Source: Melioribacter roseus
GTDB lineage: Bacteria; Bacteroidota; Ignavibacteria; Ignavibacteriales; Melioribacteraceae
Length of the DNA: 56,123 nt
NCBI GenBank assembly: GCA_020722085.1
Contig: DYLN01000007.1
Coordinates: 1 to 56,123 of the forward strand
Direction of reading: 5' to 3'
Shown: piece by piece, positions 2,102 through 49,928 of the stretch
Position numbering within the stretch: position 1 is the first letter of the stretch
Layout: every line of letters starts with the position of its first letter
Made by a program: the position numbers and the translations under genes
The notes under the pieces: model-generated
Databases searched by the model: none
Seen by the model: the letters and a program-made list of their open reading frames with translations, nothing else
Told to the model about the DNA's origin: nothing

Positions 2102-4318
<2,217 letters not shown>

Positions 4319-45373: not shown

Positions 45374-45919
45374 ATGCGAATTATTGCAGGAATTTATAAG
45401 GGAAGAATTGTAAAATTTCCAAATTCCAAACTGGTTAGACCCACAACCGATAAGGTTAAAGAATCTCTCTTTAATTATTTGCAAAACCAGATCGATTTTG
45501 AAGGCATATATGTTTGCGATATTTATGCCGGCTCAGGTTCTTTGGGCTTGGAGGCTTTGAGCCGCGGCGCTGCCGAAGTGCATTTTGTTGAGAAAGACTA
45601 TCACATCATAAAAACTCTTGAAATGAATATTAACACTCTCGATGCAGAAGACAAGTGCAGAATATTTAGAATGGAAGCTGTGAAATTCTCAAAGATGAGC
45701 AGGCACAACAAATATGACCTCATTTTTGCTGACCCTCCCTTTTACAAGTACGATATACATAAAGTAGTTTCAAATTTTTTAACTAATAATTTCTTAAAAG
45801 AAAACGGCAGATTGATAGTTGAGCGATCCGTTCAAACAGAAAAAATAGATCGGGAAAATTTTTATAAAGAACCTTTTAGGCGAATCGGTGATAGTTTGAT
45901 TTATCAATTTACAGCTTAA
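45374..45919 (+). CDS. rsmD: 16S rRNA (guanine(966)-N(2))-methyltransferase
   Basis: A 181-residue SAM-dependent methyltransferase with the RsmD start MRIIAGIYKGR, the family block VRPTTDKVKESLFN, SAM motif I CDIYAGSGSLGLEALSRGA and catalytic motif DLIFADPPF. It modifies G966 of small-subunit rRNA during ribosome assembly. In many bacteria coaD follows directly; here coaD is 3.5 kb away, separated by the restriction-modification genes. Confidence 0.94.
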   Translation: MRIIAGIYKGRIVKFPNSKLVRPTTDKVKESLFNYLQNQIDFEGIYVCDIYAGSGSLGLEALSRGAAEVHFVEKDYHIIKTLEMNINTLDAEDKCRIFRMEAVKFSKMSRHNKYDLIFADPPFYKYDIHKVVSNFLTNNFLKENGRLIVERSVQTEKIDRENFYKEPFRRIGDSLIYQFTA

Positions 45920-45983
45920 AACAGTATTAAACCGCCTGCAGATTATTTGTTTCTTTTTGTAAATTTTTTACATATTGCAAACT

Positions 45984-47846
45984 ATGACAAAAGAATACTT
46001 ATCAAATTTATTCAAAACCTATCAAAAAGGCGATGCGAGAGAAGAATCTTATTATGAACATCTTGCAGATTTCTTGAGAGACTATTCCCAAACCAAAAGA
46101 AAAAAGAAAATTGATGTGACTATTCTGCCTAAAAAGACAGAAGCCGGAAATCCCGATTTTAGAATTTGGGACCAGCCTACCCGACAGGCAGGCGGCAAAC
46201 AAAAAATAATCGGTTATATTGAAGCAAAAGATTTAGGTGTTGATCTTGATAGAATTGAAGACAGCGAACAACTCGAAAGATATTTATCAACTTTCCCGAA
46301 TGTCATCTTAACAAACTTTACAGAGTTTCGTTTATACAGAAACGGCGAACGAGTTGAAAAAATATCAATTGCTCGTCCATTTGTTATTAAAAAACTTTCC
46401 ACTGTTCCGCCTCTTGAAAACGAATATAAATTATTTGAACTGCTCGAAAGATTCTTAGACTTTTCACTTCCTAAAACTTACACGGCTAAAACTCTTGCTG
46501 TTGAACTTGCGAAAAGAACAAAGTTCTTGAAAGATGAAATTGTAACCGAAGAATTAAGGCTCGGCACAAAATCAATACACGGTTTTTATGATGCTTTTAA
46601 AGAGTTTTTAATTGCTGGAATAAACGAAAGTGAATTTGCCGATCTTTATTCGCAAACAATTACTTACGGTTTGTTCGCGGCTCGTCTCCGTGCTGAAAAA
46701 GATTTTAACAGAAAACTGGCTTACTCATACATTCCAAAATCTATTGGAATTCTTCGTGATGTTTTCAAATTTATTTCATTGGAAGATTTGCCTCAGCAAA
46801 TGGAAATAATAATTGATGATATTGCCGAAGTTCTTAACGCTGCAGACGCAAAAAAGATTCTTGACCAATATTATCACGAAGGCAAAGGAAGCGATCCGGT
46901 ATTACATTTTTACGAAACATTTCTTTCAGTTTACGATCCCGAAACAAGAGAAAAACGCGGTGTTTATTATACGCCTGAACCGATTGTTTCCTTTATAGTC
47001 CGTTCACTGCATGAAATACTTAAAGAAAAATTTAGTATGTCTGATGGTCTTGCTTCAAATGATGTAACGCTTCTCGACCCTGCCGGTGGAACACTTGGAT
47101 TTCTTGCTAAAGCAATTGAGACTGCGGTTAAAGAGGTTAAAGATAAATATGGCGAGGGCATTGTTAAAGCTTTCCTTAAAGAAAATATACTGCAAAATTA
47201 TTATGCTTTTGAGTTGATGATGGCTCCTTATGCAATCGGTCATATGAAAATGTCTTTTCTCTTGGAAGAACTTGGCTATAGAATGGAAGACGATGAACGA
47301 GTAAAATATTATTTGACAAACACTCTCGAAATGAAAGAACTTGATGAATCTAAATTCCCTGGAATGTCATCACTCTCTCACGAAAGCCACGAAGCCGGAA
47401 AAGTTAAAAAGCAAGTTCCAATTCTCGTTGTTCTTGGCAATCCGCCCTATTCAGGTCATTCTTCAAATACCGGCGATTGGATAAAAGATACAATCAAAGA
47501 ATATTACCGAGTAGATGGAAAACCTCTGGGTGAAAAAAATCCTAAATGGCTTCAAGACGATTATGTTAAATTTTTCCGCTTCTCTCAGTGGAAAATAGAC
47601 CAAGCTGGTGAAGGTGTTTTGGGATTTATTACAAACCATAGTTACCTCGATAATCCTACTTTCAGAGGAATGCGCCAATCCTTAATGAACAGTTTTGATG
47701 AAATTTATATCCTCGATTTGCACGGGAACAGTTTGAAAAAAGAAAAAGCACCTGACGGCAGCAAAGATGAAAATGTTTTCGATATTATGCAAGGTGTTGC
47801 AATTTGTTTTATGATTAAGTATAAGAAAGTAGATGGAAACCGATGA
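45984..47846 (+). CDS. Type ISP-like restriction-modification enzyme, N-terminal part (nuclease and DNA methylase)
   Basis: A 620-residue fragment of a single-chain restriction-modification enzyme. An N-terminal Mrr-like PD-(D/E)xK nuclease is visible (Asp58 in GNPDF, Glu80 and Lys82 in GYIEAKD). A helical coupler follows, then the adenine methylase: GVYYTPEPIVSFIVRS, motif I LLDPAGGTLGFL (365-374) and motif IV NPPY (486-489). No helicase domain is present, so it is shorter than LlaBIII. The frame ends at VDGNR where a palindromic insertion begins; the target-recognition part continues at 47991. Residues 65-72 (PTRQAGGK) are encoded by a repeat-like insert. ATG at 45984 lacks a clear ribosome binding site. 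Confidence 0.85.
   Translation: MTKEYLSNLFKTYQKGDAREESYYEHLADFLRDYSQTKRKKKIDVTILPKKTEAGNPDFRIWDQPTRQAGGKQKIIGYIEAKDLGVDLDRIEDSEQLERYLSTFPNVILTNFTEFRLYRNGERVEKISIARPFVIKKLSTVPPLENEYKLFELLERFLDFSLPKTYTAKTLAVELAKRTKFLKDEIVTEELRLGTKSIHGFYDAFKEFLIAGINESEFADLYSQTITYGLFAARLRAEKDFNRKLAYSYIPKSIGILRDVFKFISLEDLPQQMEIIIDDIAEVLNAADAKKILDQYYHEGKGSDPVLHFYETFLSVYDPETREKRGVYYTPEPIVSFIVRSLHEILKEKFSMSDGLASNDVTLLDPAGGTLGFLAKAIETAVKEVKDKYGEGIVKAFLKENILQNYYAFELMMAPYAIGHMKMSFLLEELGYRMEDDERVKYYLTNTLEMKELDESKFPGMSSLSHESHEAGKVKKQVPILVVLGNPPYSGHSSNTGDWIKDTIKEYYRVDGKPLGEKNPKWLQDDYVKFFRFSQWKIDQAGEGVLGFITNHSYLDNPTFRGMRQSLMNSFDEIYILDLHGNSLKKEKAPDGSKDENVFDIMQGVAICFMIKYKKVDGNR
46176..46195. repeat. In-frame palindromic insert in the restriction gene, site 1
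   Basis: CCTACCCGACAGGCAGGCGG interrupts the nuclease domain between the Asp and Glu-x-Lys catalytic residues and adds residues PTRQAGG without shifting the frame. It is much richer in GC than the flanking gene and similar to the insert at 49029-49053 read in reverse. Confidence 0.6.
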
Positions 47847-47920
47847 ATCAGTTTTTTACTCTTTGTTGGTTTTGCTTCCCCACGACTGAAGTCGTGGGTT
47901 AATCAAAACAATCAGTTTTT
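47846..47920. repeat. Palindrome flanked by direct repeats, splitting the restriction gene
   Basis: AATCAGTTTTT occurs at 47846-47856 and again at 47910-47920. Between them lies CCCACGACT-GA-AGTCGTGGG (47878-47897), a perfect nine-base-pair hairpin, enclosed by a second TTGGTTTTG/CAAAACAA pairing. The direct repeats may be a target duplication made when the palindrome inserted. Confidence 0.65.
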
Positions 47921-47955
47921 ATAACCTCGAGAGTAGAAAAGGAAAACAAAAAGAC

Positions 47956-47973
47956 AAACCGTTTTAACGGTTT
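47956..47973. repeat. Second palindrome in the split (AAACCGTT-TT-AACGGTTT)
   Basis: A perfect eight-base-pair hairpin with a two-base loop, a few bases before the ribosome binding site of the downstream fragment. It has the same build as the hairpins at 17747, 17851 and 47878. Confidence 0.7.
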
Positions 47974-47990
47974 ATTGAAAAGGAAATATT

Positions 47991-49361
47991 ATGGCTAAAG
48001 TATATCACTCGGAAATTTATGGTTTAAGAGAAACCAAATATAATTGGCTTAACAAGCACAGCATTAAAAATGTAAAATGGCAAAAGATTTATCCGCGGCC
48101 TGAATTCTATCTTTTTATTCCGACTGATGATAAACTGGCTAATCATTATTATTCCTTCCCTAAAATAACTGAAATTTTTCCGGTTAACAGTGTTGGAATA
48201 GTGACTGCACGAGATAATTTTGTAATAGATTTTGAAAAGAAAGAACTTGAGCGAAGAATAAAACAATTTATAGATCCAAAAGTTGATGATGAAATTCTTA
48301 AACAGACTTACGGTTTGTCAGAAAATCAAAACTGGAAAATAAAAGATCAAAGAGAAAAACTAAGAAAAGATTTAGACTGGAAAGATTCGATTACGAAAAT
48401 TCTTTATCGTCCCTTTGATGAACGCTGGATTTTGTATCACGATGAAATGGTTGAAAGAACAAGAAAAGAAGTGATGAAAGAAATGATAGAGGAAAACCAA
48501 GGTATTTGCATTGGCAGACAAGGAAGTGTTATTGGTTCGGATTTATATGACATTGTTTTTATAACTGACCGCATTGTTGATCTTAACCTTTTTAGAAGAG
48601 GCGGAGAGTTAGTATTTCCACTGTACATTTATGTAAAATCTTCGGCGAAGAAAAAAGCAAGGTTCACCCAGCTTTTTATGTTTGAACCTGAAGAAGAATA
48701 TCAGGCAGTTTTACCTAATATTTCTAAAGACATAATCTCTTTATTGTGTAGCAATTTTAGAAAACCTTTTTATGGTCCGCAGCATCGCATACAAAGAGAA
48801 AAAGAGAAAAAACAGGAAGCTAATTCAAAAAAAATTGAAAAAGAAGGATTCGGCACGAAGAATATTTTCTATTACATCTATGCAATTCTCTACAGCAATA
48901 CCTACAGAGCCAAATATGCTGAATTTCTTAAAATAGATTTTCCAAGAATCCCATTCACTAAAGGTTACAAACTTTTTATTCAACTTGGTAAACTTGGGCA
49001 GCAGCTTGCGGATTTGCATTTGCTCAAACCTGCCTCGCCGGCGGGCGGGTCGGAAGATTTAGATAAAACAATTTCCAAATTCCAAGGCGAAGGGAATAAC
49101 AAAGTAGAAAAACTAAAATACGAAACTGAAAAAGTCTGGATAAACAAAGAACAATATTTTGATGGAATAAAAGAAGAAATCTGGCAGTATCAAATCGGCG
49201 GCTACCAGGTTTGTGAAAAATGGTTAAAAGATAGGAAAGAAAGGACACTTACTAAAGATGAAATCCTAACCTATTGCAAAATTGTAACTGCTCTTTCAAA
49301 AACGATCGAATTGCAGAATGTAATTGATAAATATTATGAAAAAGTTGAGAAAACGCTGTAA
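47991..49361 (+). CDS. Type ISP-like restriction-modification enzyme, C-terminal part (target recognition)
   Basis: A 456-residue fragment that continues the preceding gene: its start (AKVYHSEIYGLRETKYNWL) is the block normally following the methylase core in these enzymes, and the rest is the C-terminal specificity region (ILYRPFDERWILYH, RQGSVIGSDLYDIVFITDRIVD, YIYAILYSNTYRAKYAEFLKIDFPRIPF). No start is expected here in an intact gene, yet AAAGGA lies seven bases before the ATG, so it may be translated on its own and pair with the first part. Around residue 350 PASPAGGS is encoded by a GC-rich repeat. Both parts lack internal stops, so the split is recent or tolerated. Confidence 0.82.
   Translation: MAKVYHSEIYGLRETKYNWLNKHSIKNVKWQKIYPRPEFYLFIPTDDKLANHYYSFPKITEIFPVNSVGIVTARDNFVIDFEKKELERRIKQFIDPKVDDEILKQTYGLSENQNWKIKDQREKLRKDLDWKDSITKILYRPFDERWILYHDEMVERTRKEVMKEMIEENQGICIGRQGSVIGSDLYDIVFITDRIVDLNLFRRGGELVFPLYIYVKSSAKKKARFTQLFMFEPEEEYQAVLPNISKDIISLLCSNFRKPFYGPQHRIQREKEKKQEANSKKIEKEGFGTKNIFYYIYAILYSNTYRAKYAEFLKIDFPRIPFTKGYKLFIQLGKLGQQLADLHLLKPASPAGGSEDLDKTISKFQGEGNNKVEKLKYETEKVWINKEQYFDGIKEEIWQYQIGGYQVCEKWLKDRKERTLTKDEILTYCKIVTALSKTIELQNVIDKYYEKVEKTL
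49029..49053. repeat. In-frame palindromic insert in the restriction gene, site 2
   Basis: A GC-rich stretch, CCTGCCTCGCCGGCGGGCGG then GTCGG, lies in the specificity domain and adds residues PASPAGG to 456-residue fragment without breaking the frame. The centre CGCCGGCGG is nearly palindromic. It resembles the insert at 46176 in the opposite orientation. Confidence 0.6.
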
Positions 49362-49448: not shown

Positions 49449-49928
49449 ATGGCAAAAGTAATTTACCCAGGCACGTTCGACCCGATAACCAACGGTCACA
49501 TCGATATTATTAAAAGAGCTGCGGAATTATTCGACGAAGTGATTGTTACCGTTGCGAAAAATCCTTCCAAGACTTGTCTTTTTTCAATTGAAGAAAGAAT
49601 TCAAATGCTGAAAGAAAGCCTGAAAGATTTTGAAAAAGTAAGGGTGGACTCCTTTGACGGACTGGTAGTAGATCATGCAAAGCAAGTAGGTGCAGTGGGA
49701 ATAATAAGAGGCTTAAGGGCAGTCAGCGATTTTGAGTATGAATTTCAAATGGCTTTGATGAATAGAAAATTAAGCAGCGGCATAACAACTATTTTTTTGA
49801 TGCCCCATGAAAAATATACTTATCTTAATTCAACCATAATTAGAAATCTTGCACAATTTAAAAGCGATGTATCGGATTTTGTTCCTCAGGCTGTTGTCAG
49901 AAAACTAAAGGAAAAGTTTAGCCACTAA
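49449..49928 (+). CDS. coaD: Phosphopantetheine adenylyltransferase
   Basis: Transfers AMP from ATP to 4'-phosphopantetheine in coenzyme A synthesis. The 159-residue protein has the nucleotidyltransferase motif YPGTFDPITNGHIDII, the block GIIRGLRAVSDFEYEFQMALMNR and the end motif TYLNSTIIRNLAQF (where many enzymes have ISSS). It is the usual partner of rsmD, separated here by the restriction genes. A terminator follows. Confidence 0.96.
   Translation: MAKVIYPGTFDPITNGHIDIIKRAAELFDEVIVTVAKNPSKTCLFSIEERIQMLKESLKDFEKVRVDSFDGLVVDHAKQVGAVGIIRGLRAVSDFEYEFQMALMNRKLSSGITTIFLMPHEKYTYLNSTIIRNLAQFKSDVSDFVPQAVVRKLKEKFSH

Follow-up and report, generated by a model that had tools for sequence, protein, structure and literature searches.

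A probable two-subunit restriction-modification enzyme in Melioribacter roseus, split from a Type IIG chain at a point where relatives carry accessory genes

Type IIG restriction-modification enzymes hold a nuclease, an N6 methylase and a recognition part in one polypeptide, and published models propose that they arise by fusion of Type I-like subunits (PMC6158711). In the Type IIB enzymes BcgI and BsaXI, the RM and recognition polypeptides come from separate genes and reconstitute activity (PMC9159934, PMC11997821). Type I operons can carry accessory defence genes between their RM genes, for example DarTG2 between hsdS and hsdR (PMC12255303). M.AquI and M.EcoHK31I are C5 methylases made of two polypeptides (PMC3404938), and a fusion of the M and S subunits of EcoKI is active (PMC3510504). 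Our literature search found no paper describing a Type IIG chain split as reported below, which is weak evidence because the coverage of the search was partial.

The window, a stretch of 56,123 nucleotides of Melioribacter roseus DNA, contains two forward-strand open reading frames that probably make up a split Type IIG restriction-modification enzyme, one encoding its RM subunit and the other its S-like subunit. The first half (45984-47846) has 620 residues counted from its ATG, with a possible alternative start at the TTG at 45975, and the second half (47991-49361) has 456 residues. Both are open to their own stop codons, share a common frame and are spaced by 144 bp. The first half contains a PD-(D/E)xK nuclease, a helical connector and an N6-adenine methylase (Pfam N6_Mtase and Eco57I), and the second half contains the target-recognition part and, as predicted from a model, the last strand of the methylase fold, with Type_ISP_C (298 bits) as its only Pfam match. 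The PADLOC Type IIG model PDLC03610 spans both halves, scoring 560 bits in the first and 290 bits in the second (model positions 658-1063). These matches support the earlier note, made from the sequence alone, which had described a single-chain restriction-modification enzyme in two pieces, the first ending at 47846 and the second resuming at 47991, with no stop or frameshift in either. The note had also called both halves intact and proposed a comparison with unsplit orthologues. When added to the alignment of 31 fused orthologues, the window pair has 206 of the 206 invariant residues, including the DPAGG, NPPY and PD..EAK motifs, so that intactness holds for reading frame and invariant residues; it is qualified by in-frame 7-residue insertions, one in each half, that are unique to the window.

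The best solved relatives of the window pair are LlaBIII, DrdV and LlaGI. Compared with single-chain Type IIG enzymes, of which DrdV is the nearest with a solved structure, the pair keeps the nuclease, the N6 methylase and the recognition part as well as their order, but on two genes with stop codons between them, cut between methylase and recognition part, and with a gap that is often filled. The separate RM and S genes match the arrangement of BcgI and BsaXI, which as Type IIB enzymes cut on both sides of a bipartite site and have an S subunit with two TRD-CR repeats. The window pair derives from a split Type IIG chain, and its second half belongs to the Type_ISP_C family. By this analogy, the window pair is likely to be an RM and S enzyme of the BcgI/BsaXI plan in its working and a split Type IIG enzyme by descent. 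The Type ISP enzymes LlaBIII and LlaGI share a homologous methylase and C-terminal part with the pair, but the Pfam scan found no helicase-like ATPase, which Type ISP enzymes have between nuclease and methylase, in the window enzyme, and its PDB alignments to LlaBIII start at residue 790 of that protein. Membership in Type ISP was therefore ruled out, despite the Pfam name Type_ISP_C. Type I operons resemble these loci in having accessory defence genes between RM genes and differ in that the window pair has no HsdR motor and is of Type IIG descent. M.AquI and M.EcoHK31I likewise divide a methylase fold over two gene products, but they are C5 methylases without a fused nuclease and have other split points.

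A model of one fused orthologue (L033, 31-row alignment, pLDDT 79, pTM 0.60) represents a fused relative and not the two-chain complex. Its best fold match is DrdV (7LO5, 7LVV). The split maps to a turn that joins strands 598-605 and 613-618, in a block with pLDDT of 84-88. The model thus places the split in what would be the last beta-hairpin of the methylase fold, with the second half supplying the final strand. In BsaXI, the strand of the methylase sheet on which the TRDs pack is the eighth (PMC11997821).

Many Ignavibacteria carry unsplit orthologues of about 1030-1070 residues, and in fused enzymes the junction itself can accommodate a long linker in frame (L054, L056). In 17 Ignavibacteria loci, the window included, the enzyme is split at one common junction, which lies between ..FMIK(Y)KK and M(A/S/T)K(V/I)(Y/F)H... 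Seven kinds of gap content occur among these loci, the window's palindrome remnant included. The gap contains a Y1 transposase gene in five loci (L030, L035, L036, L093, L099), a Bro-N gene in six (L031, L032, L034, L038, L068, L101), a Bro-N gene disrupted by DUF559 in L140, DUF559 in L043, MNT-HEPN in L141, an unrelated palindrome in L052 and a bare 42-nt spacer in L050; in L030 and L031, the contig edge is reached before the second half. Some split relatives have merely a 42- or 89-nt spacer between the halves. PADLOC assigns Bro-N to PDC-S13 and MNT to PDC-S09, PDCs being candidates from "guilt-by-embedding" that are mostly untested (PMC12988326).

Four further loci are split at the equivalent place, one in Acetothermia (L089) and three in a distant subfamily with 37-39% identity (L196, L197 and L198). 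The gap of L089 encodes HEPN and MNT, and the MNT stop codon overlaps the ATG of the second half; the gaps of L196 and L197 encode YhcG/DUF1016 (PDC-S02) and SduA/Shedu, respectively. In total, accessory or mobile genes occupy the gap in 18 of the 20 other split loci. In L198, positions 2869-3823 encode a gap protein of 317 residues whose N-terminal region is hydrophobic and which only its position makes a defence candidate; it has no Pfam or PADLOC match, and an abortive-infection reading of this membrane protein was dropped for that reason. One apparent split locus, L090, was rejected as such, as it has an in-frame GIY-YIG insertion instead. Because relatives share this split point, and their gaps often contain other defence genes or mobile elements, we read the split as a two-part design that was probably inherited and not as damage.

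In the window, the 144-bp gap contains three palindromes. Palindrome A (GAAACCGATGAATCAGTTTT, 47836-47855), which is degenerate and had been missed by the earlier note, includes the stop codon of the first half. Palindromes B (CCCACGACT-GA-AGTCGTGGG, 47879-47898) and C (AAACCGTT-TT-AACGGTTT, 47956-47973) are perfect hairpins, and palindrome C adjoins AAAGGA at 47979-47984 (forward strand), the likely ribosome binding site of the second half, 6 nt upstream of the ATG at 47991. An 11-bp direct repeat, AATCAGTTTTT, is found at 47846-47856 and 47910-47920. The two hairpins, the repeat and AAAGGA all lie where the earlier note had placed them. An assembly error across 47846-47990, which it had considered, is unlikely because an independent metagenome-assembled genome (L099) has an almost identical right-hand junction. 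The RNA stability of the whole gap is not unusual (z = -1.7, with 12 of 200 shuffles equally good). The many copies per genome that mark the REP family were not found for palindromes B and C: palindrome B has 1 exact copy in its own genome and 0-2 in each of 57 relatives, and palindrome C has only a few degenerate copies elsewhere in its own genome.

The gap palindromes recur in relatives by homology. The gap gene of L035 is a Y1 transposase (PF01797, 84.6 bits; NF033573, above cut-off), and palindromes flank the transposase gene in L030, L035, L036, L093 and L099. In L030 and L099, palindromes A (GAAACCGATGAATCGGTT..) and B (..CACGACTGAAGTCGTGGG) are present on both sides of the transposase gene, with the A copies intact. 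The window gap matches the junction of L030 on its left and the tail of L099 on its right, with the two joined directly and no transposase gene between them, and the leader with AAAAGGAAATATT beside a hairpin is specific to the REP-bearing loci, namely the window and L099. The window palindromes are therefore better explained as the remains of an IS200-like (Y1) transposase element, left after gene loss. The gap would formerly have held a Y1 transposase gene between repeated palindromes, and its loss, most simply via recombination between the direct A-B copies, would have left the present 144 bp. IS200-like Y1/REP elements resemble this locus in that a Y1_Tnp gene is flanked by short palindromes in the relatives, and differ in that the window has no such gene and palindrome B is single-copy in its genome, which contains two other Y1 genes. 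For IS200-like elements, a target-site duplication is not expected. The 11-bp repeat was dropped as a target-site duplication, as it was not seen in L030 or L099, and it may be due to chance. Elsewhere, a similar palindrome lies beside a Y1 gene in L174 (G046) and, at what seems to be the same place, without a Y1 gene in L173 (G048), a possible second case of gene loss leaving palindromes.

Several lines of evidence bear on the order of events. The first half ends in FMI in all 17 split Ignavibacteria copies, versus FFI in the fused ones compared. Of 16 split copies, 13 cluster in a DNA tree built from the last 438 columns of the first half (support 81/84), and for this part the AU test does not reject one clade of split copies (p = 0.26). 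An argument for a single origin from the whole first half was set aside, as those trees are poorly resolved. The common FMI end and the grouping of split copies suggest that the split is most likely older than the insert now present, with less certainty for the window's own lineage. L089 and L196-L198 stand apart from the Ignavibacteria split copies, with fused enzymes between them and at least four changes forced, and the 20 other split loci lie on at least three separate branches. The second-half tree scatters the split copies, with at least seven state changes on well supported branches. Since the second halves follow a different tree from the first halves, this pattern is best explained if recognition parts have been exchanged between split and fused enzymes.

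For the first half, dN/dS is 0.045-0.076 in comparisons of split copies and 0.04-0.07 in those of fused copies; for the second half, it is 0.08-0.36 across both classes. These ratios blend the periods on either side of the split, and dS is often close to saturation. Among the split copies, these substitution patterns show the methylase half to be under strong purifying selection. Of the 17 split Ignavibacteria copies, four are broken: L068 and L093 by frameshift, L101 by truncation and L099 by both. None of the 22 fused copies tabulated is broken. The first-half frameshift in L068, at about 5580, resembles one extra T in a T homopolymer and may be a sequencing error or phase variation.

These broken copies, together with the unique 7-residue insertion in the nuclease motif region of the window, would fit a decaying gene, in which a mobile element broke a single-chain gene and the pieces have stayed open either by chance or because little time has passed since. 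We consider this unlikely, as 20 other loci on at least three branches are split at the same point, the start codon of the second half and its context are kept, the window pair retains every invariant residue, and the first half is strongly constrained between split copies. Far less probable is the history given in the earlier note, that a palindrome insertion split the gene in this lineage and that the mobile repeat supplied the start of the second half. It could account for the AAAGGA leader beside palindrome C, shared with the element-bearing L099, and for the few terminal residues of the first half that come from palindrome A. However, the other 16 Ignavibacteria loci, with six other gap contents, show that the split does not depend on the window's insertion: relatives have the same junction and FMI end with other inserts or a bare spacer, and the grouping of split copies in the tree of the last part of the first half points the other way. 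The second half also begins in the same way (MAKVYH/MSKIYH-type starts) in split relatives without such a repeat, and the repeat was rejected as the source of the start codon. What stands of that account is one Type IIG enzyme in two intact pieces, whose action as two subunits is plausible; the insertion as cause and the repeat as start are not supported.

For the split Type IIG enzyme that we favor, both halves would be translated from one operon and would associate, because the second half would carry the last strand of the methylase sheet; precedents are the reconstitution of BsaXI from RM and S polypeptides (PMC9159934), the two-polypeptide methylases M.AquI and M.EcoHK31I (PMC3404938) and the active M-S fusion of EcoKI (PMC3510504). 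The complex would methylate DNA and may also cut it, at a site set by the exchangeable second half. Whether the window copy cuts is uncertain because of an in-frame 21-bp GC-rich insertion (QPTRQAG, 46173-46193, forward strand) within its nuclease motif, between PD and EAK. The spacing from NPDF to YIEAK is 27 residues in the window versus 20 in 37 of the 37 distinct orthologue variants listed, and the insertion may weaken cutting. A two-subunit methylase whose nuclease has been inactivated by these seven residues, so that the pair only marks DNA, is a reading we take seriously without favoring it: the insertion is in frame and lies in the turn between model strands 59-62 and 68-74, away from the motif residues, which are all in place, and similar insertions are found in other genes.

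A second in-frame 21-bp GC-rich insertion unique to the window (PASPAGG, 49029-49049, forward strand) lies in the second half and is palindromic, like the first. A similar palindromic GC-rich in-frame insertion of 21 bp, LPTGQAG, is present in a heavy-metal P-type ATPase gene of the same genome (C278:1388-1405, L186). In L090, arms of the form LPAPQP.. and RARQAGGG flank the GIY-YIG domain inserted in frame in the first half, at about 1540-1900. Given these similar arms, each 21-bp piece may represent one end, on its own, of a GIY-YIG mobile element. The GIY-YIG genes of the window's own genome were rejected as their origin, as no matching GC-rich ends lie next to them.

The window pair lies between rsmD (45374-45919) and coaD (49449-49928), both on the forward strand. 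In six relatives, one of them of the same genus, rsmD and coaD are adjacent, 22-202 nt apart, which indicates from gene order that the split pair was gained as a unit between them.

By analogy with Type I operons, the gap is best read as a site that takes up accessory genes. We propose, tentatively and with more doubt than conviction, that Type IIG enzymes were divided on several occasions into RM and S genes at a single beta-hairpin and that the gap serves as a permanent site for defence genes (Bro-N/PDC-S13, HEPN-MNT, YhcG/PDC-S02 and SduA) that act in dependence on the state of the restriction enzyme, a convergence of single-chain enzymes on the Type I operon plan. The split loci would represent the reverse of the fusion step in the published models: a single chain would have returned to RM and S, at a structurally fixed point and, it seems, repeatedly. 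With S on a gene of its own, recognition parts would be easier to exchange, in line with the different tree of the second halves. The gap position flags candidate defence genes, and the fixed split point suggests a cut site for two-part tools.

The gap of L140 offers one further observation. At about 460-1380, the DUF559 gene inside Bro-N lies between inverted repeats (ACACACCCCTTCTTTTCCCCTCTC..), suggesting that such genes are mobile in the form of small elements.
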